64,000 nucleotides of DNA from assembly GCF_006442545.2 (NCBI RefSeq), contig NZ_CP083952.1, forward strand, positions 2,101,501 to 2,165,500, in the 5' to 3' direction. Positions 36,362 through 59,703 of the stretch are shown one piece after another. Within the stretch, counting starts at the first letter, position 1; every line of letters starts with the position of its first letter. The position numbers and the translations under genes are program-made. The notes under the pieces were generated by a model. It had not been told where the DNA came from and searched no databases. It saw only the letters and a list, made by a program, of their open reading frames with translations. The DNA comes from Mesorhizobium sp. B2-1-8. GTDB taxonomy: Bacteria; Pseudomonadota; Alphaproteobacteria; Rhizobiales; Rhizobiaceae.

Positions 36362-36367
36362 GGCACG

Positions 36368-41996: not shown

Positions 41997-42784
41997 CGAT
42001 CAGGCCCCTAAGCCGATCCGACATGTCCAGTTATTCCAGCACATGTAAACGACACAAGCCATGGTCTTGCCCAGCAACTTGGCTGATGAAATCAGCTCTG
42101 CCAGCCGTCGAACAATCTATGCGGAGACGCTGGATTGGGCAAAGCGCAACCAACCCCTAAGCTCTGCGCCGCATTACTGTTCGTTGCAAAATTGCAGCGA
42201 TGTCCCTTTCGCGCCGCATAGCATCTGCCCAATTCCAGCGTATCCTGCTGCAGCGCATGTGAGCACATGGTGGCGCCTGACACCTCGACCGGCCACCATT
42301 TTAGGAACCAGCGTCGGCACGGCGGCCGAAAATCCTGAGGCAAGAGACTGCCATCTCAAGACGAAACTCGTCATGGCTTCCCGTGCCGTTATTGCATTCC
42401 TGCCAGTAGCCGGGGCCGATCGCACTTATACTTATTGATGCCGCCAACGTGGCGTTCGAGGCTGTCCTTGGGCGGATTGAACCCGACAACGAGGCGCTAA
42501 CCAGAAGCCTTTGGAACGCTGGTGACTACGTCGACAATCAGCTTTTTGGGATCTGATCACCCCCGAAAAGTTGCCAATGCCACGACGTGGTTGCGTACCT
42601 CATCGACGTATTCTTGGTGCATCATGTCATTGGATTGGCAACCGAAGCGGACAGAGAGGCTGCCGCATCTCGGTCTTAAGCCTCGCCGACCGCAGCAGGC
42701 TCTGATTACCGCGGCGTTTTAGGGGCAGCGCGATCAATGTCGTGACCTTTGCCGCCACTTCTTCGAGGGGGGCGGTAAGGCGGT
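41997..42784. other. Long stretch without a recognised gene
   Basis: 788 bp upstream of hsdR. Several overlapping frames (for example 42061-42438 plus, 42092-42343 minus) lack motifs, ribosome sites and consistent codon choice. It probably contains the RM operon promoter and decayed DNA. Confidence 0.45.
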
Positions 42785-43161
42785 TTATTGCGAGGCGGTT
42801 GCCGCAAGTTCAGGCCCGTAACGGGTGACGAGATATTCCTGGTTCTGGCTGAGAGACTGACGATGCTTGGCGGTTTTCGCGCGGAGGCGCAGGCCGGCTT
42901 CCAGCACGTGTTCTGTTCGCGCCGACAGGTCGTGCTGCATCTGATCTAATTGCGATTGTGCCCACAGGGGAGCAAAAGCGCGGTCAGATAGAGTTCGATC
43001 GCATGAATCGCCGACAATCTGCACGGCGCGCGTGTCAACGCTTTGCCGGGTCGGCCTTGTTGAAGGAGCAGGTTTGCCGCCTTGCGATACTCTTCCGCCA
43101 GCTGGTGAAGCTGCTGCGGAGATGCAAGCTCACCGGGATATTTACGTTCTTCGATCGTCAT
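42785..43161 (-). pseudogene. Frameshifted small helical protein of rhizobial type
   Basis: Two frames join into one protein of about 120 aa. The ATG at 43161 gives MTIEERKYPGELASPQQLHQ, a segment LSAIHAIELYLTALLL, and stops at 42946. A second frame (to 42785) continues MQHDLSARTEHVLEAGLRLR and ends RYGPELAATASQ. The break falls between 42941 and 42980. The 'AIHAIELYL-ALLL' followed by 'QHDL' layout is a conserved helical family I recognise from rhizobia, reminiscent of HEPN-type helices, with no known role. Frameshift implies a pseudogene or sequencing error. Confidence 0.55.
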
Positions 43162-43299
43162 TTGCGCGATCCGAACATGCTAAGGTACAACCTTTGTAGA
43201 CTAATATCATGGCTTCGCGCATCTCTTCAATTCGCTATTCCGTATCGCTCCTTGTTTGTCCGCAGCCGGGCTGTCGGTCAGAAAGGCGTTACCGACTTA

Positions 43300-44463
43300 C
43301 TACAGCGACGGCTCGTTGAGATGAGTTAAAATCTGACCAGACCGCACTGGATCAATCCTGTCTGCCTCTGCGAGCGCCCAACGTTGCCAAGCTTCCAGCA
43401 CCGACGGATCGATATCAGCCGAACCTTCATCGATCGCGCGACGGACGCGCTCCACAAGCGCGCGAATGTCTTCAGCCTGACGCAGCAGCTCGCCGCTGTT
43501 CCGCAGATTTTGCAGGCGCTTTTGATTGAGTTGAACCAGCCATTCCTGGCGCTGTTTCTCCTTTTCGATCCGCTCCCGCTCTGCACGCTCCTCGGCTTCC
43601 CGCAGGCTAAGGCGAAACTTTCGCTCGCCAGCCACGATGATCGCAGCCGCGATCTCAGCGATCTTTGACTCAAGCCTGGCGTCACCGTCGTCCTGCCAAG
43701 AAACTGTACTCTCGCGGTCGAACCCCGGATTGATCCGTAGGGCAAGCGGGGTTGAAGCTGGCAGGTCCGGCGCCGGTCGCAGATACCCCTGCTGACGCAC
43801 GGTGCGGTGGCTACCGACTATTCCAATTTCCAAACCGACATGTGTGTCGCCGATAGCTGCTCCCGCGTGAATTTCTCCATCGCGCTCGTAGGCACCACCG
43901 TCGTGGCCGCGCTTGCTGAGCGCCAAAAACAAGGCGTTGAAGATTCTCAATCGTCGCTTGCTTAGTGGATTGTCGAACTTGGGTTCGTCAAAGGTCCACT
44001 CGCGTTCTGCATTTTTGTCGCGCCGGCGCTGCTCCTGCTTGAGTATTTGAACGAGCCCTTTGTGAGGCCTGTCCAACGTGTGTGGGACGGAAGCTTTGCC
44101 AATCGCTTGCAATTCCTGTACGTGGAGTTCATCGAGGTCTTCTGGAACCAGAGCGGATGCAAATGGCCCGTTGGATGCAAGAGGGGCTGCAATCGACAGG
44201 ACCTTTTTGAAGCGCGCGTCGACACTTGCTCGGCCTATTTCGCCAGGGCGCCGCTGTGGCGCCTTCGGTAGTGCTGGCACCTTCTTTCCTGCACGTATTT
44301 TGTTCCAATAGCCTTGCGGCGGCGACGCAACTCCACATCGCGTCAGCAGCTTCTTCAGCCCGACGTCGGACAGTTCGAGCTTCGCCGCCAAGTCCCGCAT
44401 CGGCGCAGACCATGCGAACGCAATCAGATCGTCAGGCAACACAAGAATGTCGTTCTGCCACAC
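43300..44463 (-). CDS. Uncharacterised island protein with N-terminal HTH-like domain
   Basis: Protein of 387 aa with three visible parts. Residues 12-60 (IAFAWSAPMRDLAAKLELSD, then VGLKKLLTRCGVASPPQGYW) look like a helix-turn-helix followed by the 'P-GYW-K--AGKKVP' tail of a widespread unnamed family found on genomic islands. The middle is mixed alpha/beta without known motifs. Residues ~270-345 form a charged coiled coil (SLREAEERAERERIEKEKQ). No enzyme motif is seen. A truncated relative lies at 48609-49022. Probably DNA binding; function unknown. Confidence 0.7.
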   Translation of the reverse strand: MWQNDILVLPDDLIAFAWSAPMRDLAAKLELSDVGLKKLLTRCGVASPPQGYWNKIRAGKKVPALPKAPQRRPGEIGRASVDARFKKVLSIAAPLASNGPFASALVPEDLDELHVQELQAIGKASVPHTLDRPHKGLVQILKQEQRRRDKNAEREWTFDEPKFDNPLSKRRLRIFNALFLALSKRGHDGGAYERDGEIHAGAAIGDTHVGLEIGIVGSHRTVRQQGYLRPAPDLPASTPLALRINPGFDRESTVSWQDDGDARLESKIAEIAAAIIVAGERKFRLSLREAEERAERERIEKEKQRQEWLVQLNQKRLQNLRNSGELLRQAEDIRALVERVRRAIDEGSADIDPSVLEAWQRWALAEADRIDPVRSGQILTHLNEPSL

Positions 44464-44785
44464 GTCGCCTTACCTCCATTTTGTTCAACGAGGCTGCTTT
44501 TGGCACGGCCTTCGCAGTGTAGATATGACAGGCCGGCAGTGCCATCGAAGGTCAAATTCACCAACTCCAACGTGCCCTCGATCGCGCCAGGGATGCGCCT
44601 ACATCGTCAAGGCGGCTGCAGATTGGCCGCGGCCGAAGCAGCGCTCTCGGTGAGCATCGGCGGGACGCTCTAGAAGCGATCTGCTCCCTTTCGTAGTTCC
44701 TCGCGCAGCAGGGGGCAGCCGGACATAACCGCGTGACAAAGCGAGGTTTGGTGCTGTCGAGCGAGGGTCACGGAATACGACCGAA
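44464..44785. other. Intergenic to the left end of IS66, no gene recognised
   Basis: 322 bp, presumably the promoter region of the 43300-44463 gene. The last 8 bp (CGACCGAA) are the IS66 target duplication. Confidence 0.5.
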
Positions 44786-44874
44786 GTAAGCGTCCGGACG
44801 CTGCACATCGGGTCAGATCTTGACAGGAATCCTGGATTTGGCGGCTCGGGGAAGCAGCACGTCGACGCGGTTCG

Positions 44875-45084
44875 CTACTCTTTAGGAGGCTCCGATTTCG
44901 CGATCACTGCCTCTGCTCGCTCTATCGCTGCTTGGAGCTCATCGCTCTGCCATGAATCGGCGGAATGGCCATCGTCGAACGACCGGTCGTGGGTCTCTCT
45001 CGCGCGTGACGTGAGTTCACGAAGCGCGGCAATGGCCTCGGCAAGCAGTTCAGCATCTGCCCCGCCTCGGGAAGACTGTGTCAT
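44875..45084 (-). CDS. Small acidic passenger protein inside IS66
   Basis: Protein of 69 aa from the ATG at 45084, preceded by GAGGATGAAG; a TTG at 45108 is in frame. It lies within the IS66 boundaries, downstream of tnpC on the same strand. It is acidic and helical: AELLAEAIAALRELTSRARE and QAAIERAEAVIAKSE. It has no motif I recognise. Coding is plausible but unproven. It could be an accessory or regulatory IS protein, or a chance frame. Confidence 0.4.
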   Translation of the reverse strand: MTQSSRGGADAELLAEAIAALRELTSRARETHDRSFDDGHSADSWQSDELQAAIERAEAVIAKSEPPKE

Positions 45085-45199
45085 CTCTTCATCCTCGTCA
45101 TATTGCAATTATGGGCCATCGAGCACGATCGTTACAACATACGACGATCGCTATTGGCCTTTGTTCAAGCTTTGCCAATTGGCGAGAGCCTGGTTTTGC

Positions 45200-46747
45200 T
45201 CAGGTGGCGTCGGCCGACCCTTTGGGTGTCCAGTTCCACGGCAGGAGTTCGTCGAGGCGGTTGACTGGGTGTCCATCGACCATGCGGGTGAGCACATCGC
45301 GCAGCCAGGCGCAGGGCTCGACGTCATTGAGCTTGCAGGTTTCGATCAGCGAACACAGCACCGCCCACCGATGACCACCGCCGTCGCTGCCCGCGAAGAG
45401 GTGGTTCTTGCGGCCGAGACTGACCGGACGGATCGCGCGCTCGACCGGGTTGGTGTCGAGCTCGATGCGACCGTCGTGCAGGAAGCGGGTCAGGCCGTCC
45501 CAGCGCGAGAGCGCGTAGCGGACCGCTACGGCGAGTGTGCTTCGTCCCGACAACAGTGGAAGCTGCGCTTCGAGCCAGACCCGCATGGCGTCGACAATTG
45601 GTTTCGAACGGCTGCGCCGAGATGCAAACCGATGCGCCGGCGACTGACCGCGAACGTCGGCTTCGACGGCATAGAGTTCGCCGATCCGGCGCAAAGCTTC
45701 GATCGCGATCGGTGCGTTGGTGGCCTGCGCCACGTCGTAGAACTTGCGCCGGGTGTGCGCCCAACAGGCAGCAAGAACGATGTCTCCCTTGACGGTGAGC
45801 TGCTCGAAGCCGGCATAGCCATCGACATGGAGCACGCCCTTGAAGTGCTCGAGATGCGAGGCTGGACGTTCGGCCTTGCGGTCCGGCGCGAACAGATAGA
45901 CCGCAGCCGGCGGCCCCGGTCCGCCCCATGGCCGCTGCTCACGGGCGTATACCCACAGCCTGCCGGTCTTGGTGCGGCCGCGGCCCGGATCAAGCACCGG
46001 AACCGGCGTGTCGTCGGCAAACAGATGATTGGAAGCGAACACGCTTTTGGCAAGCCGCTCATGCAGGGCTTCGAGCCACCAGCAGGCGCCGCCAACCCAT
46101 CCGGCGAGTGTCGAACGCGGAAGATCGACACCACTGCGTGCGAAGATCTGCGACTGCCGATAGAGCGGGGTATGGTCGCAATATTTGGCTGTCAGCACCT
46201 GCGCCAGCAGCGCCGGCGTTGCCATGCCGCCGGCGATCAGCCGCTCCGGAGCTGGCACTTGCACGACCGTCTCGCAGGTCCGGCAGGCATATTTTGGTCG
46301 CGTTGTCCTGATCACACGAAGCTGCGCTGGCACCCAGTCCAGCATCTCGCTCACGCTCTCGCCGATGGGATGCAGCGCGCCGCCGCAGCCCGTGCAGACT
46401 GTGCTGCCGACATCGAGCAGGACGTCCTCGCGCGGCAGATGATCGGGCAGCGACTTGCGATGGGATTGCCGCTCGGCCGACAGCTTGCCTGCGAACGGAC
46501 GGCTCTCCCGGATGCGAGCAACATCGGCATCGAGCTCTTCCAGCGCGAGCGCGAGCTGGTCGGGATCAAGCTGCTCGGAACTGCGGCCGAACTGCGCTCG
46601 CTGGAGCTTTTTGATGATCGACTGAAGCCGCTCGATCTCGCCGTCGCGGCTCTCGACCGCAGCCGCCATGTCGCGCACGAGACGCTGCAAAAGCTGCGGG
46701 TCGGAAGGCAGATTCGCGAGATCGATCAACATGACCGAATCTATCAC
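45200..46747 (-). CDS. tnpC: IS66 family transposase TnpC
   Basis: DDE transposase of 515 aa, the usual IS66 length. In order it shows an N-terminal leucine-rich coiled coil, a zinc-finger segment (CTGCGGALHPIGE; YACRTCETVVQVPAPE), the catalytic core starting at LFADDTPVPVLDPGRGRT, then LHVDGYAGFEQL, and the late glutamate region NPVERAIRPVSLGRKN. An in-frame ATG 15 bp after the first Met is an equally good start. No frameshift or internal stop. Confidence 0.94.
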   Translation of the reverse strand: MIDSVMLIDLANLPSDPQLLQRLVRDMAAAVESRDGEIERLQSIIKKLQRAQFGRSSEQLDPDQLALALEELDADVARIRESRPFAGKLSAERQSHRKSLPDHLPREDVLLDVGSTVCTGCGGALHPIGESVSEMLDWVPAQLRVIRTTRPKYACRTCETVVQVPAPERLIAGGMATPALLAQVLTAKYCDHTPLYRQSQIFARSGVDLPRSTLAGWVGGACWWLEALHERLAKSVFASNHLFADDTPVPVLDPGRGRTKTGRLWVYAREQRPWGGPGPPAAVYLFAPDRKAERPASHLEHFKGVLHVDGYAGFEQLTVKGDIVLAACWAHTRRKFYDVAQATNAPIAIEALRRIGELYAVEADVRGQSPAHRFASRRSRSKPIVDAMRVWLEAQLPLLSGRSTLAVAVRYALSRWDGLTRFLHDGRIELDTNPVERAIRPVSLGRKNHLFAGSDGGGHRWAVLCSLIETCKLNDVEPCAWLRDVLTRMVDGHPVNRLDELLPWNWTPKGSADAT

Positions 46748-46804
46748 AAACAGCCCAGGAACCCAAGGATTCCGGGCCTTTTTGGGACTATCGGCGAGCC
46801 GATT

Positions 46805-47155
46805 TCAGCCGGCCAGGGCTGGCCTCCAGACACGCTCGGGAGCGCGCCAGTCGATGCCTTCGATCAGCATTGCAAGCTGCGCCGGCGTCAGCGTGATCGA
46901 ACCATCATAGCTCGCCATCACCGGCCACGCGAAGCTGCCCTGATCAAGCCGCTTGGTGAACAGGCACAGGCCGTTTCCGTCCCAGAACAGGATCTTCAGC
47001 ATCGACGCCTTCTTACCCCGGAAGGCAAAAAGATGGCCCGAGAACGGGTCCTGCTTCAGCGCTTGCTGCACCAGCATGGCGAGCCCGTCGAGACCCTTCC
47101 TCATATCGGTGTAGCCCAGCGCCAGATGCACTTTCACGCCCGCGGGAACGATCAT
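46805..47155 (-). CDS. tnpB: IS66 accessory protein TnpB
   Basis: Protein of 116 aa, typical IS66 Orf2 (TnpB of IS66, unrelated to the RNA-guided TnpB). The family motif DMRKGLDGLAMLVQQAL is near residue 20, and FRGKKASMLKILFWDGNGLC follows. Essential with TnpA for IS66 transposition in known elements. It overlaps the end of tnpA by one base, so translation is coupled. Confidence 0.94.
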   Translation of the reverse strand: MIVPAGVKVHLALGYTDMRKGLDGLAMLVQQALKQDPFSGHLFAFRGKKASMLKILFWDGNGLCLFTKRLDQGSFAWPVMASYDGSITLTPAQLAMLIEGIDWRAPERVWRPALAG

Positions 47156-48051
47156 TATGTTCCTGTTCCTTCGCTTTCAAGATGCTCGCGAACTGCATCC
47201 GGATCGCTTCCGGTAGCGGCGAAGACGCGGCGGCCGTCAGGCAGATCAATCGCCGTCATTCCATCAGGCGGCTGTACCAGGCTCTGCAGAAGGCGCACCG
47301 CCGCGGTGTCATCGCCCATCGCCACAGCCGCCAGCTTCGCGCGCTTCTTCTGCGCTACGCCGAACTGCGCGCGCCAACGGAACAACAGCCCCGTGACGAT
47401 TCCGTGCTTTCGCGCGACCTGCGAGACGCTGACACCTGGCCGATCGCTCTCCAGCGCAATGGCGTGCTTTTCCTCATCGCTGAAGAAGCGTCGGGCAGGT
47501 TGCCGGGGCGTGCCCGGATCATCGTTCGACGCGGCCGTCAAGCTCGATTCCGGCGGCGTTCCGTTAGCACTAGTGCTAACGGCCGGGCGGGCGGAGGGAT
47601 GAAGATGCGCCCGCCAGTCGATTTCGACCTCACCCTCATCCAGTCGGTCACGCCATATGCGCAAGCTCGTCGGCGAAAGATGCAGCGCCGCGGCATATTC
47701 GCGAACACCCATGCCGCTCCAGTTCATCGCCTCGACATGCATCGCCCAGTACGCCTGGACAGCACGGTTGCGCACATCCGTGGTCACCGAAAAGCGCAGC
47801 CGAGCGCGCTTTTTCTGCCGCTTCGCTCGCTCTTCCAGGCGCTTCTGACGGCGCAATTCTGCCTGATATTCCGCATGCTTACGAGCCGCCTCGTTGCCCG
47901 CGAAGTACTTCAGCCAACGATCGAGCGTGTCCTTCGTCAGGCGATGCACGCGGCAATACTCGGTCCGCGTCATACCGCTGCGCTGCCACGCCTCGACGTG
48001 AACCACCCACCAGGATTGCCGCGCCTTGTTCTCGAAATGTCTCAAATTCAC
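47155..48051 (-). CDS. tnpA: IS66 accessory protein TnpA, long form with three HTH-like repeats
   Basis: Protein of 298 aa, about twice the usual TnpA length. The conserved Tnp HTH unit lies at ~185-245 (FFSDEEKHAIALESDRPGVS and GIVTGLLFRWRAQFG). Two related N-terminal units precede it (WWVVHVEAWQRSGMTRTEYC ... LDRWLKYF and YWAMHVEAMNWSGMGVREYA ... LRIWRDRL). Together they would give three HTH-like DNA-binding repeats. It is the first gene of the element and starts 82 bp inside the right inverted repeat. Confidence 0.9.
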   Translation of the reverse strand: MNLRHFENKARQSWWVVHVEAWQRSGMTRTEYCRVHRLTKDTLDRWLKYFAGNEAARKHAEYQAELRRQKRLEERAKRQKKRARLRFSVTTDVRNRAVQAYWAMHVEAMNWSGMGVREYAAALHLSPTSLRIWRDRLDEGEVEIDWRAHLHPSARPAVSTSANGTPPESSLTAASNDDPGTPRQPARRFFSDEEKHAIALESDRPGVSVSQVARKHGIVTGLLFRWRAQFGVAQKKRAKLAAVAMGDDTAAVRLLQSLVQPPDGMTAIDLPDGRRVFAATGSDPDAVREHLESEGTGT

Positions 48052-48133
48052 CGGAGATCCTCCATGCTACGAAGGAGCCCGACATATGGCGCGAATGCAC
48101 TACTCAATCTGGGTGCAGGGACCGGACGCTTAC

Positions 48134-48608
48134 CGACCGAAGACCGATGGCAAGATAAAAGGGCGCACATTGTGCGGCCGTCGGTCGATTGTTTTTGCTA
48201 GTATTTTTAGCGTCCTCGGCACATTGTGAGCCTTTGTCGCAAAGTGCGCTTCAATGTTAAGCAATTGTGTTGGCTCAACAATTTACAATGTGCTTCTCAA
48301 TCGGCGATTGCGATTGTCCACGGATATTTGGAAGTGGTTCCGCACCGCCGTGAGACTAGCCCTAGATGGCTGCCGTGTTGTCATGAGGGCAGCCTACGCC
48401 CTTGTCGACAAGGCATCTTTGAACGGCAGTCTGCGACGTCGAGTGCCCAAAGTGCGAACGTTGGACCGGTTACTATGAATGGACACGCCGGCGCCACGCT
48501 GTCTTAAAAGCTACCCAAACCGCTGATAGGCGGATGACGAGCGATGTGCATCACCAGCCGCTGCTGGCAGTGCGATATCGACCGCGATCGAACTGAGAAC
48601 TTTTCGCC
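48134..48608. other. Intergenic to the right of IS66, no gene recognised
   Basis: 475 bp of mixed composition, A+T-richer than the IS. Small frames without motif. It is the counterpart of the gap interrupted by the IS66 insertion. Confidence 0.45.
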
Positions 48609-49022
48609 GTGCAACTGACACGCCTTGAGCTTTACAATCGAGTCTGTGAGACGCCTCTCAGCAAAATCGCTCCAGAGTTCGGAATTTCCGGCACGGTGCT
48701 GGCATCGATATGTAAGCGGCATCAGGTTCGCTATCCTGGGTCGGGATATTGGACGCGTAAATTGCTCGGGCTCCCGGTAGACTTGCCGCCACTGCCGGAG
48801 GCACCGGACGAACTGATCGAGCTAACGTCGTCGACCCCAAAGCCTCGACGAAAGAGAACCGTCAAGGAAGGCTCTGTTCGCCAGCCAAGGCCTGCCATGA
48901 AACCGCAACGTCCGGCGCGCCATCCACTGCTCTTCGGCGTTGAAGAGCACATGCGAAAAACACGCGACGTAAAAGAGGGCGAGTTCCTCAGGCGCGCGGG
49001 ATGGGCGTGTGGGGTGAGGTAG
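48609..49022 (+). CDS. Truncated member of the HTH-like island family
   Basis: Product of 137 aa whose first ~70 residues (LYNRVCETPLSKIAPEFGIS, then ASICKRHQVRYPGSGYW) align with the N terminus of the protein at 43300-44463: both have the short helix, HTH-like segment, 'P--GYW' and a Leu/Pro tail before basic linker residues. The rest (KPRRKRTVKEGSVRQP) is basic and low-complexity, and the frame stops where the family normally continues for another ~250 residues. This is likely a 3'-truncated gene, perhaps cut by a past insertion (see the integrase-like remnant at 49109). The HTH-like part could still bind DNA. Confidence 0.55.
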   Translation: MQLTRLELYNRVCETPLSKIAPEFGISGTVLASICKRHQVRYPGSGYWTRKLLGLPVDLPPLPEAPDELIELTSSTPKPRRKRTVKEGSVRQPRPAMKPQRPARHPLLFGVEEHMRKTRDVKEGEFLRRAGWACGVR

Positions 49023-49108
49023 AGATCACGAGTCGGGCGTCGCGCTCGCATTGAGGGTGGTTCGGCAGCGGCAGAGCATCACGGGCTTCTTCAACAAGGA
49101 GCCTGACC

Positions 49109-49162
49109 ATGACCCACCCCGCTCTCGATGCACCGATCAGCCCACTGCGCCAGCCTATGTGA
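49109..49162 (+). pseudogene. Possible start of a tyrosine integrase, remnant
   Basis: After AAGGAGCC, an ATG opens MTHPALDAPISPLRQPM then stops. 'ISPLRQ-M' resembles the first residues of rhizobial tyrosine recombinases of IS91-associated type, in which a longer protein follows. Only 17 codons remain, so the call is weak. Confidence 0.25.
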
Positions 49163-49267
49163 CCGAGCAAAAATATTGGTGGGATAAGCCTAGATGGCCT
49201 TAGGCTTCTATTTACAAATTTCCGTGTCGCTCTAAAGAATGCGCGTCTATTTTCTCTAGGGGGGAAT

Positions 49268-49819
49268 ATGCCGCTAGTTACCCGAAAGTGTTTTGTCTCC
49301 TATCATCACGATAACCAAGACGAGGTCAGCGCGTTCGTTCGTACATTCCACCACGAGCAGGGCGCATTTACGGGTAGAGGGCTGGGATTGGTCGAGGGGA
49401 TGGCGGCCGATATCGTAGATAGCAACGACACCGACTATGTAATGCGGCGAATTCGTGAGGTGTATCTACGGGGATCGTCGGTCACGCTTGTGATGCTGGG
49501 GAATTGCACTTGGTCGCGCAGATATGTGGATTGGGAAATCCAAGCCTCCCTTCGCCAAGATAGAAATATTGTGCCGAACGGACTGCTGGCTATAAAACTG
49601 CCAAGCTTTCGCGAGGGCACTTCGTTTCCTGATCGTCTCGAAGCTAACCTCCTCGGAAGGGATGAGTGTTTTGCTCGGTGGATTAGCTACCCCACGAACA
49701 CCGACCAGCTCGTTGCCCACATTGAGGCCGCCTATCAGCGCCGCTCCACTCACGCCCAGTATATAGTGAACTCTCGCGACCGGTACTCCTACAACCGCAA
49801 CTGCACGCGGTGGATATGA
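49268..49819 (+). CDS. TIR-like (MTH538/DUF1863, ThsB-type) protein
   Basis: Predicted 183-aa TIR-like protein, first in a three-gene operon. RKCFVSYHHDNQDEVSAFVR is the opening strand and loop of the MTH538/DUF1863 group; SVTLVMLGNCTWSRRYVDWE carries the conserved W...WE, with E90 the candidate NADase Glu. GGGGG precedes the ATG by 5 bp. ThsB, a member of this group, makes a cyclic-ADP-ribose-type signal in Thoeris on phage infection; whether this one does is inference. Its stop is in an ATGA overlap with the membrane gene. The gene is visibly A+T-rich for the window, supporting foreign origin. Confidence 0.78.
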   Translation: MPLVTRKCFVSYHHDNQDEVSAFVRTFHHEQGAFTGRGLGLVEGMAADIVDSNDTDYVMRRIREVYLRGSSVTLVMLGNCTWSRRYVDWEIQASLRQDRNIVPNGLLAIKLPSFREGTSFPDRLEANLLGRDECFARWISYPTNTDQLVAHIEAAYQRRSTHAQYIVNSRDRYSYNRNCTRWI

Positions 49820-50505
49820 ACGTTCAAGTTCCTACTCCGCCCGCGGCACAGCCCACGAGCCCACTACTAACGCTGCTCTGGGATCAGGCTAATTGGTCAC
49901 TGACGCTCACCGCTAGCGCCTATTTGCTCATCATTGTCGCGCTATTCGGGATTCTGTTGGCTGCGTGGCGCCTGTACACGGGTGGGCTGAGTTTTAAGAA
50001 TTTTGAGATCGACCAGGCTGAAATCGGAGTTGGCACAGGCCGGTTTCGCTTCAAGCCTAACATTACTGATAAGCAAGTCGCATACGCCGTGTGGGTCGAA
50101 CTCAGCACGAGAAAGATCGGGCTTCCAATCGATTTCGACAATGACATTGTCTCGGAGATATACGACTCCTGGTTCAATTTCTTCACGGTTACCCGCGAAC
50201 TCATCAAGAGCATTCCTGCGAATCAGGTGAAGCGCTCAAGCACGCAAGCAATCATAAAACTCTCAATTGAAGTCCTGAACGGGGGGCTCCGACCCCATTT
50301 GACCCAGTGGCAGGCGAGATTTCGCCATTGGTACGATCGCGAACTGAAAAAGTACGACGAGGGAAAAGGGCCAGAGGTGCTTGATCCTCAGGCGATACAG
50401 GAGAAATTCCCAAAATTTGCTGACCTTAAGAAGGACATGGAGCGCGTCAACCAGTCTCTCATTCGCTATCGCTCGAAGATGCATGAACTTGTGTTGAAGG
50501 ATTGA
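49816..50505 (+). CDS. Single-pass membrane protein between two TIR genes
   Basis: Protein of 229 aa not recognised as a known family. Start chosen at the ATG of the ATGA overlap (a GTG lies 6 bp earlier). It has one strong transmembrane helix (about residues 27-51, LTASAYLLIIVALFGILLAA) with ~26 residues before it. A cytosolic domain of ~175 aa follows: a strand-rich part (FEIDQAEIGVGTGRFRFKP; AYAVWVELSTRKIGLPID), then helices ending in a charged coiled coil (KKDMERVNQSLIRYRSKMHE). No macro, SIR2 or nuclease motif is seen. Location suggests either a membrane effector responding to a TIR-made nucleotide or a membrane sensor that switches on the TIRs. Confidence 0.65.
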   Translation: MNVQVPTPPAAQPTSPLLTLLWDQANWSLTLTASAYLLIIVALFGILLAAWRLYTGGLSFKNFEIDQAEIGVGTGRFRFKPNITDKQVAYAVWVELSTRKIGLPIDFDNDIVSEIYDSWFNFFTVTRELIKSIPANQVKRSSTQAIIKLSIEVLNGGLRPHLTQWQARFRHWYDRELKKYDEGKGPEVLDPQAIQEKFPKFADLKKDMERVNQSLIRYRSKMHELVLKD

Positions 50506-50508
50506 ACT

Positions 50509-51099
50509 ATGGCGCTCTACACCGAAGATTTCTTCCGTACATTGGGGCGGCCAAAGGCGATTTCGAAGACCGCTTCAGTTGAATTGGCCGAAGAAATCGC
50601 AGCGACGAACAATGTCAATTCCTTTGACGTTTTCCTATCTCACTCCATCAAAGACAAGCAGGTTATCTTGGGGGTCAAACGTTTTTTGGAGCGGCAAGAC
50701 TTGGTCGTTTATGTGGACTGGATTGTAGACAACGATTTGGAGAGGACGAAGGTTAATTCAGATACCGCTGAAAAGCTGCGGGTACGAATGAGGCAGTCAA
50801 AGTCGCTTCTTTATGCACATTCGAATAATTCACCTGGCTCAAAATGGATGCCGTGGGAGTTGGGCTTCTTTGATGGATCGAATGGGCACATCGCTATTTT
50901 GCCGATCGGAAAATCGGCAGATGAATCCTTTACGGGTCAAGAGTTTGTTGGCCTATATCCTTCGTTAGAAAATCTTTCCGCAGCGAGTTTGTTTTTGTAT
51001 CGCGGATCCGCCCCGGAGAGATATCTAGCTCATCCTCCAAATCCCACGGTAACGAGCGTCAGAGAATTCAAAAGCTGGCTTAAAGCATCGATCGGCTAA
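50509..51099 (+). CDS. TIR domain protein, C-terminal type
   Basis: Predicted 196-aa TIR protein. The first ~37 residues are an extension (EDFFRTLGRPKAIS ...). The TIR core begins at SFDVFLSHSIKDKQVILGVK (box 1-like) and continues through LVVYVDWIVDNDLER (BB-loop side). SKWMPWELGFFDGSNGHIAI follows; E117 of 'WELG' is at the NADase Glu position of bacterial TIR enzymes. It starts 3 bp after the membrane gene stop. It is more distant in sequence from the 49268 TIR-like protein than paralogues would be, so the two TIRs probably have different jobs, for instance sensing/signalling and NAD depletion. Confidence 0.8.
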   Translation: MALYTEDFFRTLGRPKAISKTASVELAEEIAATNNVNSFDVFLSHSIKDKQVILGVKRFLERQDLVVYVDWIVDNDLERTKVNSDTAEKLRVRMRQSKSLLYAHSNNSPGSKWMPWELGFFDGSNGHIAILPIGKSADESFTGQEFVGLYPSLENLSAASLFLYRGSAPERYLAHPPNPTVTSVREFKSWLKASIG

Positions 51100-51136
51100 C
51101 CGCCCGACGTTGGCTACCAAAACTAAGGAGAGAAAA

Positions 51137-51277
51137 ATGGTCAAGAAGCCTGAGAAGAAGACGATATTCCGTGACTCTGAATCGGGAAGAATTACGACCG
51201 AAGAGTATGCAAAGAAGCATCCGAGGACGACAGAGAAGGAAAGGGTGACGGTGGTGCCACCCAAGAAAAAGAAATAG
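51137..51277 (+). CDS. 46-residue basic protein after the TIR operon
   Basis: Strong AAGGAGAG ribosome site, then ATG. The product is MVKKPEKKTIFRDSESGRIT and a tail TEEYAKKHPRTTEKERVTVV ending PPKKKK. The 'RDS-SG--T-EYAKKHP-TT-KE' pattern recurs in many tiny bacterial proteins (sometimes mislabelled as transporters), which supports coding. Its role is unknown; it is highly charged and may be nucleic-acid or protein binding. It lies 37 bp after the TIR gene and could be the fourth gene of that operon. Confidence 0.6.
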   Translation: MVKKPEKKTIFRDSESGRITTEEYAKKHPRTTEKERVTVVPPKKKK

Positions 51278-51641
51278 AATTTGTATTCTCTATCGGCGGC
51301 CTACCGCACGCCGACCCGAATTCACGTTCTGCCGCTTGGTCGCCGGCAACGCCCGCTTTTAGGCGATCGCAAAGTAGACCTGGATGGCCGGTACCAGGCT
51401 CGAAGCAGCCGCTCGCTCGCTCCGGCGCCGCCTCAATGGCTCGCGCGGCCTCCGCCAAGATAGTCGCCGGTGAACTATCCGCAAGGCTTTGATCTGGTTT
51501 CCTAATCGGTGAGGAATGCGGGAATAGCGTTGCAACATTTGCGGTGTCTGGTGGCCGTTTTCTTGCAATTCGATTTGACGATTCCCTTGTGCGCCGATGC
51601 GTGATTCACTCGTTTTGGCGGGCGAATCGAGGGGACGGCGA
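51278..51641. other. Intergenic, no gene recognised
   Basis: 364 bp between the small basic gene and the IS5-like transposase start. The last ~45 bp (GTGATTCACTCGTTTTGGCG at 51601-51620) probably belong to the left end of that element. The ends of the element could not be defined. Confidence 0.4.
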
Positions 51642-52992
51642 ATGTCCAGGCCACGCGAGAAGCGCGAGACGGGAGAGCAGGACCTGTTCCGCTCCAGGCT
51701 CGATCAGATCATCAACATGAAGCACGAGTTGGTGCGGCTGGCGCAGGCGATCGACTGGCCGGTGCTGGAGGAGCGTTTCGGCGCGGTCTATTCGGACGGT
51801 CCTGGCATGCCGCCCTTGCCGACGCGACTGATGGCGGGCCTTGCGATCCTGAAGCACACTTTCGACTTGTCGGACGAGGAGCTGTGCGCCCGCTGGGTGG
51901 AGAACCCCTACTTCCAGTATCTGTGCGGTGAAGAGTTCTTCCGCCACGAGCTCTCCTTCGAGCGCTCATCGATGACGCGCTGGCGCCAGCGCATGGGCGA
52001 GGAGCCGATCACGGCGCTCCTGCAAGAAAGCCTGGCGGTGGCGGTCAAGAGCGGAGCGATGAAGCCGGCCGATACGCGCCGGGTGATCGTCGACACGACC
52101 GTGCAGCCGAAGAACGTGATGTTCCCCACCGACGCCAAGCTCGTCAATCGGGCGCGCGAGCGAGCGGCTGGTGCGGCTGGCGAAGAAGGCGGGGCTCGAT
52201 TTGCGCCAGACCTACGTGCGGGTCGGCAAGCTGGCGCTGATCAAGCACCAGCGCTACGCGCACGCCAAGCAGTTCAAACGGGCCAACAAGGCGCTGCGCA
52301 AGCTCAAGACCTATCTCGGCCGCACCATTCGCGACATCTCCCGCCGGATCACCGGCCAAACGGACCTCGAGGCGAGCTTCAAGTGGCCGCTCTACCAGGC
52401 CTCGGCGGTTCTGGAGCAACGTCAGCGCCAGCGCGGCCGCAAAATCTACAGCCTGCACGCCCATGAGGTCGAGTGCATCGGCAAGGGCAAGGCGCATGCC
52501 CCTTACGAGTTCGGCGTCAAGGTCTCGATCGCCACGACGCTCGAACGCTCGAAGGGCGGCCAGTTCGCCCTGCACGCTAAGGCACTGCCCGGCAATCCCT
52601 ATGACGGCCATACGCTCGCGACCGTTATCCCCGACATGGAAAAGACCATCGGCAACGAAATCGGCCGCATCCTCGCCGACGCCGGATATCGCGGCCACAA
52701 CGCACCTGAAAGCCACAAGCTCAGGGTCTTCACCGCCGGCCAGAAGCGCCGCGTCACACCTGCCATCAAGCGTCAGATGCGCAGGCGATCGGCAGTCGAA
52801 CCCGTCATCGGCCACATCAAGGCCGAGCACCGCATGGGCCGCAACTACCTCGCCGGCGAACAGGGCGACGCCATCAACGCCATCCTCGCCGCCGCCGGCT
52901 ACAACTTCTCGCTCCTGATCAAATGGTTCAGGCTGCTTTTGTGGCTTCTCATCACAGCACTCCAAAGCCGCCCCAGATCCAGCGCAGCCTGA
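51642..52992 (+). pseudogene. IS5-like transposase broken by a 4-bp tandem duplication
   Basis: The intact protein would be about 448 aa with an N-terminal DUF772 domain (QDLFRSRLDQIINMKHELVR; LKHTFDLSDEELCARWVENP). The catalytic part begins RRVIVDTTVQPKNV; after the shift it reads GHTLATVIPDMEKTIG, ILADAGYRGHN and RSAVEPVIGHIKAEHRMGRN. The shift is explained by GAGC repeated at 52158-52161 and 52162-52165, a 4-bp tandem copy changing +1 frame. Start taken at ATG 51642 after GAGGGG. It lies between the TIR operon and the right half of the island. Terminal repeats were not resolved. Confidence 0.8.
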
Positions 52993-53152
52993 CCCACTTC
53001 ATTGTTCACGGACGACAAGATAGCTTGACGAGTTCCAACTGACTTACTCCTAACGCCTAAGCAAGTTCTTACAGAGCGATCACCGTGGGGTTCCGCCAGC
53101 CGCATTCGAGGCAGCTCCGGCGGCGCCGGATTACCAAACGCGCTGCTGAGCT

Positions 53153-53383
53153 CTATCCGCCGTTTAATCGACGGGAAAGCCTTACGCCTGGGCCGCCGCC
53201 ATTCTCGGCAATGAACTCAATGCCTGCGGCTTCCAACGCGCTGCGGATCGCTTTTCGATTAGCTAAGGTAGTTGGCGGAATGCCGTCATCGGCCTCGGCA
53301 CGTCTTACAGTCGCCACGCCCACGCTAGCAGCTTCGGCCAGATCCTTCGCGCTCCAACGAACCAATGCGCGCGCGGCTCGCAT
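53153..53383 (-). CDS. Small XRE-type helix-turn-helix regulator
   Basis: Protein of 76 aa from the ATG at 53383. MRAARALVRWSAKDLAEAAS, followed by VGVATVRRAEADDG, is an XRE/Cro helix-turn-helix of the single-domain type common beside rhizobial integrative elements. The frame continues upstream as ITGTQ, and relatives often begin MTGTQMRAARALV, so the real start may be a few codons earlier with an unusual codon. It probably represses the recombinase or neighbouring island genes (inference). Divergent from 53587-54297. Confidence 0.7.
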   Translation of the reverse strand: MRAARALVRWSAKDLAEAASVGVATVRRAEADDGIPPTTLANRKAIRSALEAAGIEFIAENGGGPGVRLSRRLNGG

Positions 53384-53586
53384 TTGAGTGCCGGTGATAT
53401 CTTTCGTATCATGTGATTGCAAAGCGATCTCGGATCTGTTAATCGGTAACGGTAGACTGGCCGCTTCAGCCGCTTGCAACGACCCAAGTCCTTGCTGATA
53501 TCGGCTGTTGCACGAATATGGCCGGGCAACGTGCGCTTGCACGCAACCCGGCTTCACCACAGCCAAGCTGTTGGGAGCTCGGATCC

Positions 53587-54297
53587 ATGGCTGATTCCGA
53601 CAATACCATGACTTTGCCCTTCGTCGCGCGCAAGACGGGTGCTGTAAGATCGGCGAGTGCGATCGACGAATCGCCAGCAGAAACGGAAATTCGGAGCGAG
53701 TCCGACCCATCAGCCGATCCTGCTGTGGCGGCTGCGAAAATGCCGACTATTCTCGCCGCAAGCCACAACGAGCCAGAATTGCATCCGGCAGCCCTACGCG
53801 ATCCCGCACTTCTGCTCGTGAGCGATTGGCGAAGGGCTCGGTACATCTCGATGCTGCTATGCCGTGTGCAGCAGCGGCTGGAGAGCCAAGTCATGGTCAA
53901 TCCCGGAATTCAGGGATTGACCACAGATTTACGGACCCGAGTTCAAAACCAAACGGTGCGGGCTCTTGGTGATCCACATGAGTATGCGGTTGCGCGGGAG
54001 GCCGAAGTCTTTGCGATGACCGAAGCACTGAAGCTTCAAGATTCTATCCCCGAAGTCGCGGCTACGTCGCTCATCGGCGTCATCGCTAAATTAGAAATGG
54101 TCGTCGGTGCTGATCGAGATATCGGCGACCCGACCGACTTCCCGTGGCCGCACATAGCTTCGGTACTGCGAGACTTAAAGGCCATCGCGGGAGGTTTGCC
54201 GGTTGGTCGCCGGAGCCGGGAAAGGACGCGGAGCGATGTTGCCAAGCATTGGGAGTCCGCAGTCAAGCTGGTCGCGGCGCTGAAAGCGGAAGGTTAG
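53587..54297 (+). CDS. Hypothetical protein of rhizobial island type
   Basis: Protein of 236 aa from the ATG at 53587, preceded by GGGAG; the frame is open from 53518. The first ~60 residues are low-complexity and acidic. The rest is helical and begins LLVSDWRRARYISMLLCRVQ, with a DRDIGDPTDFPWPHIASVLR turn and a basic end. No catalytic motif. It sits between the small regulator and the recombinase with its partner, the usual setting of such proteins in rhizobial elements. Function unknown. Confidence 0.55.
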   Translation: MADSDNTMTLPFVARKTGAVRSASAIDESPAETEIRSESDPSADPAVAAAKMPTILAASHNEPELHPAALRDPALLLVSDWRRARYISMLLCRVQQRLESQVMVNPGIQGLTTDLRTRVQNQTVRALGDPHEYAVAREAEVFAMTEALKLQDSIPEVAATSLIGVIAKLEMVVGADRDIGDPTDFPWPHIASVLRDLKAIAGGLPVGRRSRERTRSDVAKHWESAVKLVAALKAEG

Positions 54298-54492
54298 GTG
54301 GAGTACCGTGGCGATGAAGCGGTCTTGTGACCCTCACCACTTGTCGCCTGCAACCCGACCTTGACGATTGAGGCGAAACCGCATGGCGCAAGTCATTGCA
54401 CGCCGTGACCCTACGATATGAACTGCGCGCTTTTCTTCGCCGTCCGGTGAGCTCTGATGGCGGGTCGATCCACCATTGGGAGAGCGACCGCG

Positions 54493-54768
54493 ATGGCAGA
54501 GGAAACTCGGACCGGGCGACAGGCTTTGGCTCCGGCGAACGACAACGGCGACCTCGTTAGCCCCGAGGTTTGCCCCGAACTTCTGGCGTCGGCCAAGCTG
54601 GATCGGCTGGTGCTGGATATCGCACGGTTGGTCGGTCGGCAACTGGCGCGGGAGGCATTCGAGGCGGGCCAGGCGGCCAACGACAATCGGCCGGGCCGCC
54701 GAGAGGGAGAGGGCAGGGGGCCTGATGACAACCCTCTTGGGAACAGCAGAGAGGATCTGCCGCCATGA
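54493..54768 (+). CDS. Small protein upstream of the serine recombinase
   Basis: Protein of 91 aa from the ATG at 54493 with GGGAG at good spacing; the frame is open from 54457. LDRLVLDIARLVGRQLARE, then AFEAGQAANDNRPGRREG, resembles the short proteins repeatedly placed directly before large serine recombinases in rhizobia. It ends 33 bp before the recombinase start and is probably co-transcribed with it; a directionality or accessory factor is possible but unsupported. Confidence 0.55.
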   Translation: MAEETRTGRQALAPANDNGDLVSPEVCPELLASAKLDRLVLDIARLVGRQLAREAFEAGQAANDNRPGRREGEGRGPDDNPLGNSREDLPP

Positions 54769-54801
54769 CCCGTGTCGCAAACAAACGAAGTGGAATGGTC
54801 C

Positions 54802-56451
54802 ATGACTCGCGTTGCGCTGTACGCTCGCTATTCGTCCGACAACCAACGCGAAGCGTCCATCGAGGACCAACTGCGCCTTTGCCGAGAACACTCATTTAAA
54901 GAGAGGTGGACTGTCGTTGGGACCTATACCGATGCTGCCATATCTGGTTCTAGCATCGTCCGTCGACCAGACATTCAGCGGCTCCTGAATGATGCTCAGA
55001 GCGGACAGTTTGAGATCGTTCTTGCCGAGGCGCTTGATCGCCTCTCACGCGACCAGGAGGACGTGGCTGGTCTCTTCAAACGGCTGCGCTTCGCAGGCGT
55101 CAAGCTCGTCACCTTGTCCGAGGGAGCAGTCGACGAACTGCATGTCGGCCTCAAGGGAACGATGAACGCGCTATTCCTGCGTGATCTCGCGGTTAAGATC
55201 AGGCGCGGCCAGAGCGGACGAATATTGAACGGCTATGCGGCTGGTGGCCTTTCCTATGGCTATCGCGTCCTCAAAAAGCTCGACAAACACGGCGAACCGA
55301 TCCGCGGCCTGCGCGAGATCGATGAGATTCAAGCGCAGGTCGTGCGTAGAATCTTTCAGGAGTTTGCGGTTGGTCGATCAGCGCGTGCAATAGCTGCTGA
55401 CCTTAACAAAGAATGCATCCCATCGCCCTTTGGTGGCGCTTGGGGCGCCTCGACGATCAATGGAAATCTGAAGCGAAGAAGTGGCTTCCTGTACAACGAA
55501 ATCTATATCGGTCTGCTTGTTTTCAACCGTATCAAGATGGTCAAAGATCCAGAGACGGGGAAGCGCATCTCGCGACCGAACCCGCCCGAAGCGTGGCAGG
55601 TCATGGAGGTGTCGCATCTGCGCATCGTGGACGATGCGTTGTGGGAAGCAGCCCAAGCTCGCAAGAAGCTATATGGGGGTGCGAAACTCCATCATCGCCG
55701 ACGGCCGAAACATATGTTCTCAGGGCTTGTGCGCTGCGGCTGCTGTGGCGCTTCCTATACGGTGAAGAATCAAGACCAACTGGCCTGTGCCGCGCATCGT
55801 GAGAAAGGCACCTGCGTCAACAGCAGGACGATCCGTGTTGGCGACCTCGAAAAGCGTGTGCTTGCTGGCGTCCAGCGGCGATTGCTGGCGCCAGATGCCA
55901 TTGCGGGCTTCCTTGCCGAATATCACGCCGAGCAAAAGCGGCTGAATGCGATGAACCGCCAACGGAATAAGGAAGCTGAGAAGCGGCTCATCGGCATCGA
56001 CAGGCAGATCGCCAATATCGTCGATGCCATTGCCGACGGTGTCTCGACGGCCAGCATGAGATCGAAGTTGCTAGACCTCGAGAGCGAGAAGGAAAGTCTA
56101 GCGCGAGAGCTTCAGGCCATGGCAGCCGCTGAAAGCATCGTGGAGTTTCACCCGGCGGCGGTCGAGGCTTATCGCCGGAAGGTGTCAGAACTTCAGCAAG
56201 TGCTACAATCAGACGAAAGCGAGCGTCATGAGGCAGCAAGGATTGTCCGCTCACTGGTTGCGAGGATCGATGTCATTCCGACGGAGGGTAGGGGGCGGGT
56301 TGAGCTCAAGGTTCACGGTGCGTTGGCGGAGCTCCTCAATCTGGCAAACCGCAATCCAGGAGAGGCGCCCAACGCTGTATTGATGGTAGCGGGAGAGCGC
56401 TACCGCCTTTCCCCCCACTCACCAAACCATCAGTTCCGGCTTCGCTGCTGA
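54802..56451 (+). CDS. Large serine recombinase (integrase of the island)
   Basis: Site-specific serine recombinase of 549 aa from the ATG at 54802; the frame is open from 54772. MTRVALYARYSSDNQREASI holds the catalytic Ser (S11 in the Y-A-R-x-S pattern). The resolvase catalytic domain is followed by the recombinase domain (GLSYGYRVLKKLDKHGEPIR), a zinc ribbon (LVRCGCCGASYTVKNQDQLA, then CVNSRT) and a coiled coil to about residue 470. All elements are intact, so the enzyme may be active in integration or excision. Its last ~55 codons (56246-56407) are repeated 23 kb upstream at 33013-33174. No att core was identified. Confidence 0.93.
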   Translation: MTRVALYARYSSDNQREASIEDQLRLCREHSFKERWTVVGTYTDAAISGSSIVRRPDIQRLLNDAQSGQFEIVLAEALDRLSRDQEDVAGLFKRLRFAGVKLVTLSEGAVDELHVGLKGTMNALFLRDLAVKIRRGQSGRILNGYAAGGLSYGYRVLKKLDKHGEPIRGLREIDEIQAQVVRRIFQEFAVGRSARAIAADLNKECIPSPFGGAWGASTINGNLKRRSGFLYNEIYIGLLVFNRIKMVKDPETGKRISRPNPPEAWQVMEVSHLRIVDDALWEAAQARKKLYGGAKLHHRRRPKHMFSGLVRCGCCGASYTVKNQDQLACAAHREKGTCVNSRTIRVGDLEKRVLAGVQRRLLAPDAIAGFLAEYHAEQKRLNAMNRQRNKEAEKRLIGIDRQIANIVDAIADGVSTASMRSKLLDLESEKESLARELQAMAAAESIVEFHPAAVEAYRRKVSELQQVLQSDESERHEAARIVRSLVARIDVIPTEGRGRVELKVHGALAELLNLANRNPGEAPNAVLMVAGERYRLSPHSPNHQFRLRC

Positions 56452-56619
56452 GAAAAAGCAGCATGGCTGTGCGACGGTGGATGTCGATATGTTCTTAACC
56501 GTCAGCATTTCGAGTGAAGTAGGGTCCCTGTGGCGACTGTCGATGTGTCGGGCTTGAAGCCAGGACATTGACTATACCCCCGATAGGCATGCGCTCAACT
56601 CGGTTGCTAGCCTATGTGA

Positions 56620-58164
56620 TCAGGGAACAACCAGTTCGATAAGGAATGGCCCCTTGCGTCGAAATGACATCGTCAGCAATTCCGCGAAACGCTCCATCGT
56701 AGCCGCTTGTGCCGCTTCGACGCCGTAGCCTTTTGCCAGATCGATCCAGCTGATCGATGGGTTCTCTAGGCTCATCATGTCCAGCGCGACGCGCCCCGGA
56801 TTGGCGCCGACATTTGCAAACTCGCCGAGGAGAATTGCGTACTTCCGGTTTGAAAGAATGATCGTCGTGACGTCCAGTTTTTCGCGCGCCTGTGTCCACA
56901 GGCCTTGTGCGGAATAGAGTGCGGACCCATCCGCTTGCAGGTTTACGGTCCTTCGGCCTGGCGCGCCGATGGCCGCTCCCGTCGCGAGCGGAATACCCGC
57001 ACCGATCGCGCCGCCCGTAAGCTGCAGCCAGTCGTGCTGGGCTGCACCCTTTGTGCCGGAGAAGAAATCTCGACCGAAGCTGACGCTCTCATCCACGATG
57101 ACGCTTTGCTCGGGTAAAAGGGCGCTCAGCGCTTGTGCGACCGCCTGCGAGGTAACCGTCCCGGTCGGGGGCGATAGCTTTTCTCTGGCGGCGGGAGAGA
57201 TCGCATGATCCGCAGCGCCCAGTTCGTCCGCAAGCCGCGAAAGCGCATCGTTCAGATCCTGTTCCGGTCGAGCGAGGACATGAACTACCGCCTCTCTTGG
57301 CTCGGCTGAAGCAGGCTTGTCCGGATAGGCAAAGAAAGCCACGGGTCGGGTTGCGCCCACCAGGATGACGTTTGAAACGTCTGATAGCACCTTCACGGCC
57401 TGGTCTATGGAGTAGGGCAGTCGTGTGACCGGATATCTCCCTTCGCCGCGTTCGATGCGGGCATTTGAAACGGGGGCATAAAGCCTTGCCCTCGTTGCGG
57501 CGGCGATTCTGCTTGCCAGTTCAAGCTGAGGCGCCTGCAATGCCATGCCACCAAGAATGATCGCCGCCTGCCGACCGGAACGCAGCAGGCGCGTCGCCGT
57601 CACCACGGTGTCAGGGCTCACTTGCGGGGCGCTGGAGGCAGGGCGGGGCAACCCCACGATACTGCCCGGGTTCCAGCAGGCATCCGACGGCAATATGAGG
57701 GTAGCTATGCCGCCCGGACTTTGCAGCGAGGCTTCGACGGCGGCCGCGGCATCTTCTCCAACGGTGTGCGAACTCGCCGATGTTCTGACCCATCGCGAAA
57801 CCGGACGCGACCAGCCTTCGGTATCGGCCGTCAGCGGTGCGTCGATCGGGCGGTGATAGGTCGCCTGATCGCCGACCAGGTTGACGATTGGAGTGTTCGC
57901 GCGTCGTGCGTTGTGAAGGTTGGCGAGACCGTTTGCCAGGCCCGGGCCGCAATGCAGCAAGGTGGCTGCTGGCTTGCCGGTCATTCGTGCATAGCCGTCC
58001 GCGGCGCCCGTCACCACGCCTTCGAACAGGCCAAGCACGCAGCGCATACCGGCAATCCGGTCCAGCGCTGCAACAAAGTGCATTTCGCTGGTTCCCGGAT
58101 TGGCGAAACATGTGTCCACCCCGCACGCCAGCAAGGTTCTGACCAGGCTCTCGGCACCGTTCAT
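56620..58164 (-). CDS. ThDP-dependent decarboxylase/acetolactate synthase-like enzyme
   Basis: Predicted thiamine-diphosphate enzyme, 514 aa. LGLFEGVVTGAADGYARMTG has the catalytic Glu (E48) that activates ThDP, and GGAIGAGIPLATGAAIG precedes the Mg/ThDP motif NLQADGSALYSAQGLW...SNRKYAIL. The middle domain has the benzoylformate-decarboxylase/ALS-like layout. As the last of three minus-strand genes after an SMP-30 lactonase and a 2-hydroxyacid dehydrogenase, it would fit decarboxylating a 2-keto acid (inference). The upstream gene ends 19 bp before it. Confidence 0.83.
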   Translation of the reverse strand: MNGAESLVRTLLACGVDTCFANPGTSEMHFVAALDRIAGMRCVLGLFEGVVTGAADGYARMTGKPAATLLHCGPGLANGLANLHNARRANTPIVNLVGDQATYHRPIDAPLTADTEGWSRPVSRWVRTSASSHTVGEDAAAAVEASLQSPGGIATLILPSDACWNPGSIVGLPRPASSAPQVSPDTVVTATRLLRSGRQAAIILGGMALQAPQLELASRIAAATRARLYAPVSNARIERGEGRYPVTRLPYSIDQAVKVLSDVSNVILVGATRPVAFFAYPDKPASAEPREAVVHVLARPEQDLNDALSRLADELGAADHAISPAAREKLSPPTGTVTSQAVAQALSALLPEQSVIVDESVSFGRDFFSGTKGAAQHDWLQLTGGAIGAGIPLATGAAIGAPGRRTVNLQADGSALYSAQGLWTQAREKLDVTTIILSNRKYAILLGEFANVGANPGRVALDMMSLENPSISWIDLAKGYGVEAAQAATMERFAELLTMSFRRKGPFLIELVVP

Positions 58165-58183
58165 GATTTTTCCGTTCGATCTC

Positions 58184-59641: not shown

Positions 59642-59703
59642 TCTCGTTCCGCTGTTTCCGTTGGGATTGGAGTGCGTGTGCGCGCCGGCGAAGTCGATGC
59701 GCA

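Follow-up and report, generated by a model that had tools for sequence, protein, structure and literature searches.

The question raised by the 64,000-nucleotide stretch of Mesorhizobium sp. B2-1-8 analysed here (contig NZ_CP083952.1, positions 2,101,501 to 2,165,500; the window) is whether a compact operon, in which the gene for a small membrane protein (MP) lies between two genes for TIR proteins, encodes an anti-phage system and which of its products would act as the effector. We consider the chances about even that it is a Thoeris-like, TIR-based anti-phage operon, with the effector's place taken by a membrane protein that carries an undescribed helical domain. The basis for this reading is the gene content, the conserved pairing of MP with TIR genes, the conservation of the TIR glutamate, the predicted helical domain and the exchange of output modules (transmembrane (TM) helix, patatin or none) among MP relatives. 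The genes, and the parts of MP, are as follows.

49268..49819, forward strand: TIR1, 183 residues, ThsB-type TIR protein with Glu90 in a DWE motif.
49816..50505, forward strand: MP, 229-residue membrane protein of no known family, with homologues beside TIR genes (hydropathy, AlphaFold2 model).
49906..49962, forward strand: codons of the predicted TM helix of MP (hydropathy).
50053..50502, forward strand: codons of the conserved helical domain of MP (alignments A1, A2 and A5, a 36-sequence tally and the model helices).
50509..51099, forward strand: TIR2, 196 residues, second ThsB-like TIR protein with Glu117 in a WELG motif.

TIR1 and MP share an ATGA overlap (49816-49819), and a 3-bp gap (50506-50508) separates MP from TIR2. 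The host genome (6.87 Mb) contains a single ThsB_TIR match and two TIR_2 matches (Pfam, E<=0.001). Two of these three are the TIR genes of this operon, so their pairing here is more than chance. The first-pass annotation, a reading of the letters and open reading frames (ORFs), had described the same three joined genes and had called the first a ThsB-type TIR and the third a different TIR; the arrangement, both assignments and both glutamate positions are confirmed.

TIR1 matches the ThsB_TIR family of Pfam (3.7e-16) and the ThsB models of PADLOC (best 8.2e-10). In the PDB it is related to 6lhy (entry: DUF1863 protein), presumably the B. cereus ThsB of PMC7272460, and to 9b7d (entry: ThsB1), at 8.1e-4 each, and its Glu90 aligns with the glutamate in the YEI motif of both. 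TIR2 is matched by the PADLOC ThsB model PDLC00422 (1.5e-59) and by PDB entry 8btn (6.5e-36); its score against Pfam TIR_2, 25.2 bits, lies under the cut-off of 28. Both window TIRs have a glutamate of the catalytic type, which is conserved in 16 of 17 TIR1-type and 10 of 10 TIR2-type proteins that we chose for alignment. The same TIR classes occur with another partner on an Acinetobacter plasmid (L065, 2546-5390), in a row made up of a TIR2-like gene, another TIR gene, a TPR-annotated gene with a match to a PADLOC TIR effector model and, last, a TIR1-like gene.

MP consists of an N-terminal segment, one TM helix and a C-terminal four-helix domain (approximately residues 80-229). The sole hydrophobic segment spans residues 31-49. 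Within 20 residues of it there are no lysines or arginines on the N-terminal side and two on the C-terminal side, a distribution which favours a cytosolic location of the C-terminal domain. An AlphaFold2 model built from a 12-row alignment (mean pLDDT 76.9, pTM 0.60) places helices at 85-98, 112-131, 141-183 and 201-227, and the C-terminal half is accordingly predicted to form a four-helix domain. Its conserved residues are E95, T98, R99, S118, R127, N155, R159 and P160; judged by helix register, E95, T98, R99, N155 and R159 could point towards one another at one end. An alignment of 36 sequences, with L053 and the N-terminal parts of four large fusions among them, keeps S118 in 35, R127 and L154 in 34 each, R99 in 31 (lysine in 4), R159 in 31 and E95 in 29.

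The description of MP as a single-pass protein with an unrecognised domain holds. No match was found in Pfam or PADLOC at E<=1, and the single NCBIfam match is at chance level (E 0.027, 13.7 bits against a 511-bit cut-off). When Pfam was searched at E<=10, no family was common to more than one of eight MP-family members, the best single match being DUF3482 (0.004). A sequence search of the PDB gave no significant relative (best E 0.13 and 0.053), and a fold search returned generic helical bundles only, FAT domains and designed proteins among them. Several identities were tried and rejected. MP is not supported as a SLATT protein, since none of the 8 members has a SLATT match in Pfam and hhalign with a 3-sequence profile gave a Probab of 0.12 of 100; nor is it supported as ThsA, TRADD-N or another named domain by Pfam or PADLOC, or beyond the chance-level match by NCBIfam.

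The MP domain was searched for in genome contigs (3 loci), plasmids, viral contigs and genome scans, and was found at 36 places besides the window, in Pseudomonadota, Bacteroidota, Chlorobiota, Bacillota, Actinomycetota, Cyanobacteriota and viral contigs. The scans, whose counts include the own or starting genomes, were positive in 3 of 199 genomes of the host's family, in 6 of 398 of its phylum, where one match is weak and has stops, and in 6 of 296 from the phylum to which a Chlorobiaceae genome belongs. With few genomes positive per scan, and these spread over several phyla and viral contigs, the domain is rare, scattered and wide. The members on Bacillota plasmids and in E. coli prophages are remote (hmmsearch E 2.6e-6 to 1.8e-12), and the annotated phage record collection gave no match to the two MP relatives tried, from L025 and L059. 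Left out of the total of 37 places, window included, were Streptomyces longwoodensis plasmids H4 and H5 (their match is like that of H3, which was kept), L060-L062 (MP identical to that of L059 in 239-243 of 243 residues), L051, L063 and L064 (contigs shared with L025 and L052) and L016 (a weak match with three in-frame stops). The 37 are partly dependent: two of the places lie in L006, and L047/L048 as well as L007/L026 form close pairs.

A TIR gene lies within 5 kb of the domain at 31 of the 36 other places. The outcome that the first-pass annotation had named as fatal to its claim, namely homologues of MP never accompanied by TIR genes, therefore did not arise. Counting the window, the nearest TIR is at most 150 bp away in 22 of the 37 places, at most 3 kb in 31 and at most 5 kb in 32. 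The five places with no TIR within 5 kb are L003 and L038 (where the contig ends at 463 bp and 613 bp, respectively), L037, L027 and L054 (a fragment). Of the 19 members that bear a TM helix, 18 have a TIR at most 3 kb away, a count which includes L053, where the TM helix was judged by eye and the TIR comes from an iterated hidden Markov model (HMM) with no Pfam check; the exception is L003, with only its 463 bp downstream.

The TIR models behind these counts were iterated on the same loci, and part of the partners were therefore checked with Pfam. Pfam or record names cover part of them, and in several genomes and viral contigs the iterated models are what identifies them, with the L030 and L033 fusions falling outside the Pfam-scanned set. 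Doubtful calls of the iterated HMM are the ORFs of 281, 301 and 837 residues in L006, a WD40 protein of 1193 residues in L033 and an ORF of 204 residues in L053; solely the last of these counts as a nearest TIR. For the background, 61 related genomes of 1.4-8.3 Mb gave 56 TIR_2 matches, of which some are fragments of a single gene. This is about one per 5-6 Mb, a figure that excludes ThsB_TIR and is drawn from relatives of the window's host, the hosts of the other places being unsampled. Even so, a TIR should fall by chance within 5 kb of an MP domain in well under 1% of cases.

Several of these places repeat the gene set itself. The viral contig L025 has TIR1, MP and TIR2 in the window's order, with a one-base overlap and a 58-bp gap, and both of its TIRs are recognised by Pfam. 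L046 has the order TIR2-TIR1-MP, its TIR1 having no first strand and a lysine replacing the glutamate, and the TIR1-MP pair is also present in L047 and in the viral contig L052. In Lactiplantibacillus and Listeria records an MP relative with three hydrophobic segments lies 5' of a TIR gene; the Lactiplantibacillus TIR belongs to ThsB_TIR (Pfam), and a second TIR comes after. In Aureispira MP is preceded by four TIR genes, the nearest 41 bp off. In Sphingobium (L002) and in two further genomes (L034 and L045) MP lies near a ThsB_TIR-type gene in one kind of cluster, which in L045 also encodes an Nmad2 protein (Pfam), with look-alikes in the L002 and L034 clusters (found by likeness, outside the Pfam scan).

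The domain occurs in four forms: with one TM helix, with two or three, fused to a patatin lipase, and stand-alone. The lipase fusions, in Mesorhizobium and L035, are recognised by Pfam, and patatin would be another membrane-attacking module. The stand-alone members without a TM helix mostly adjoin TIR genes, including one for a TIR protein annotated as GUN4 and others for TIR plus SLOG proteins. Two kinds of member are located as follows.

L029, 4959-7535, and L035, 5471-8140: MP-type domain fused N-terminally to a patatin-like phospholipase, close to genes of the ThsB_TIR type.
L025, 492-1175, and L052, 5962-6660: MP homologues on viral contigs, with N-termini strongly positive before the TM helix.

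In L036 (6088-8743) and L039 (6680-9381) the soluble member lies beside TIR and SLOG cluster 2 domains, which are fused in L036 and separate in L039.

How far does the operon agree with known systems? Both window TIRs match PADLOC ThsB models, and the presence of two diverse TIRs around one partner recalls Thoeris type I; the partner, however, is the small protein MP in place of a SIR2-SLOG ThsA, with no SIR2 or SLOG match. With type II, in which a TM-macro ThsA accompanies the TIR, the operon shares a membrane-anchored partner, but the cytosolic domain of MP is modelled as helical, has no macro match and is preceded by one TM helix. The statement that no SIR2 or macro domain is visible holds for all three genes. 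Type IV, as far as the available text of PMC12847820 describes it, has a caspase-like protease as effector, whereas the three window genes have no peptidase match. Searches of the host genome for STALD and for ThsA_Macro found none, though in neither search did a control give a match. The operon thus appears, by sequence, to be Thoeris-like in its TIRs and to be without the effectors that define types I, II and IV.

The nearest likenesses outside Thoeris concern the partner of the TIRs. In Vibrio (L067) a relative of TIR1 adjoins the gene of a divergent SLATT (2-TM effector) protein, and in Enterococcus phage IME197 (L076) a relative of the E. coli prophage TIR lies 3' of a DUF4231 gene; these loci resemble the operon in having related TIRs beside a small membrane protein, and differ in that MP has no profile similarity to SLATT. 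In Indioceanicola (L068) a SIR2 gene and another TIR lie beside a TIR2 relative. Because related TIRs adjoin SIR2, SLATT and DUF4231 genes, the partner slot appears to be exchangeable and often occupied by a membrane protein, and for this reason we prefer a model in which the TIRs signal, the helical domain of MP is the receiver and the membrane is the site of action. The TRADD-N and effector-associated domains (Kaur 2021, PMC8195603), in the parts of that paper available, are likewise small non-enzymatic domains found beside or fused to TIR and other effectors; the difference is that the MP-family members have no Pfam family in common.

In the preferred reading one or both TIRs would sense infection and convert NAD to an ADP-ribose-type signal or assembly. 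Its receiver may be the four-helix domain of MP on the cytosolic side; MP would then oligomerise, and its TM helix would damage the membrane and so halt the infected cell. With two diverse TIRs flanking a single receiver, a wider range of phages could be sensed, as has been proposed for multiple ThsB copies.

The first-pass annotation had presented the operon as possibly undescribed, and it is here that P2-like prophages matter. On the P2-like (pro)phage contigs L059-L062 an MP relative with two TM helices is followed by a ThsB_TIR gene, between the replication and portal genes; L073 and L077 have the same pair in the same position, and it recurs nearly unchanged in 42 of 5426 E. coli genomes. 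For the system known from this hotspot, that of phage AC1, the DefenseFinder name is Rst_2TM_1TM_TIR. According to the available text of Rousset 2022 (PMC9122126), the P2-like phage AC1 carries a TIR gene and transmembrane-protein genes at this hotspot; the three cloned genes protect E. coli C from lambda, LF82_P8 and P2; and the TIR may produce a messenger that activates the membrane proteins. On that description AC1 is the nearest tested system, with a TIR gene beside membrane-protein genes (the operon has one) and a hotspot where, in E. coli P2-like prophages, a ThsB-type TIR adjoins an MP-family member.

Whether the operon is a distant member of the AC1 system, which would fit either mechanism for MP, is in our judgement evenly balanced. 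L059 and L060 carry an extra TM gene upstream, of one family at 33% identity, which gives the TM + TM + TIR order described for AC1. That upstream gene, however, is truncated in L073, has been replaced in L077 and was seen in neither L061 nor L062, and tblastn of the L059 protein against the phage collection gave no match, so that AC1 is compared here by its published description. The window differs further: its MP has one TM helix where the E. coli relatives have two, a second TIR stands where the second TM gene would be, and MP is 19% identical to the L059 protein. Novelty is tempered, because relatives of the MP-TIR pair occupy the P2-like hotspot in which the phage-tested AC1 system lies. 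The part of the original claim that stands is the absence of a ThsA-type match; that the system is undescribed is made doubtful by the hotspot pairs. Apart from AC1, no paper was recognised for this three-gene set by name or description in the literature searched, as far as the texts were available, and in the same texts the MP domain family, its pairing with TIRs across phyla and the exchange of output modules were not met.

The main rival to MP as the effector is that it serves as a membrane-anchored adaptor or regulator which holds or restrains the TIRs, while the TIRs, TIR2 above all, kill by depletion of NAD. The conserved domain would then be a TIR-binding module, and would therefore also exist alone and fused to lipase. 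Real difficulties for the effector role arise at this point: 13 of the 37 members have no TM helix, and the reversed charge of the L025 and L052 homologues predicts an opposite membrane topology. Soluble stand-alone members beside TIR genes, at 13 bp (L008), 87 bp (L055), 11 bp (L057) and 15 bp (L058), or beside TIR plus SLOG proteins (L036, L039), are what an adaptor would look like, and the glutamate kept in both window TIRs agrees with killing by the TIRs themselves. On the other hand, TIR1 belongs with the ThsB proteins, and these, in Thoeris, pass a signal to a separate effector (PMC12847820, as far as its available text goes); the TM and patatin fusions resemble output modules. We consider the adaptor rather unlikely. 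What remains of the earlier proposal of a possible new TIR-membrane protein effector system is the ThsB-like character of the TIRs and the recurrent MP-TIR pairing, while the effector role of MP is made uncertain by the TM-less members. That the operon is decayed or non-defensive cargo of a mobile island and plays no part in phage defence at present is suggested by the IS66 genes and transposase pieces on its flanks and by the absence of MP from the 8 same-genus genomes listed by name (the unlisted ones may include more of the genus), but is improbable given three intact frames, both catalytic-type glutamates and a pairing conserved across phyla.

A wider reading, which we offer tentatively and with some doubt, is that the four-helix domain is an unnamed receiver for TIR signals, present in at least six phyla and in viral contigs, with outputs that can be exchanged: a single TM helix, two or three such helices, a patatin lipase, or none (a free adaptor). 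If true, SLOG-, macro- and caspase-type Thoeris would be joined by a new class of TIR immune signalling, one that is modular. TIR enzymes produce ADP-ribose-type immune signals, and every receiver found so far has brought to light either another signal or another mechanism by which infected cells are killed. The MP domain, found with TIRs across many phyla and linked to membrane and lipase modules, is a direct candidate for another; it is small enough for purification and tests with TIR products, and may account for the membrane proteins of the AC1 locus.

The operon is embedded in a mobile stretch that carries further defence genes.

34505-41996, reverse strand: type I restriction-modification genes HsdR, HsdM and HsdS, then an AAA_15/PtuA-like ATPase gene, about 7 kb left of the operon.
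45200..48051, reverse strand: IS66-family genes (Pfam DDE_Tnp_IS66, TnpB_IS66, HTH_Tnp_1), left of the operon.
51137..51277, forward strand: lysine-rich ORF of 46 residues, 3' of TIR2; membership of the operon unsupported.
51597..52992, forward strand: transposase pieces in two overlapping frames (Pfam DUF772, DDE_Tnp_1), right of the operon.
54772-56451, forward strand: large serine recombinase with a zinc-ribbon domain, candidate mobiliser of the island.

The first-pass annotation was right to place the genes on a mobile island and to call them A+T-richer than their neighbours: in 1-kb steps the GC content is 47.9% at 50000-50999 and 55.2% at 49000-49999, against 55-65% in the remaining steps across 40000-59999. 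Its span, which ran to 51277, took in the 46-residue ORF. This ORF has no match in Pfam, PADLOC or NCBIfam, and was rejected as a fourth gene, a pattern made from its sequence being absent from the other loci fetched by then. Scans for promoters and terminators gave site numbers close to those of shuffled sequence (1 against 1.6 and 3 against 2.5, respectively), and no pair of inverted repeats was seen to bound the operon. The transposase on the right is split into a DUF772 part and a DDE part by an apparent frameshift.
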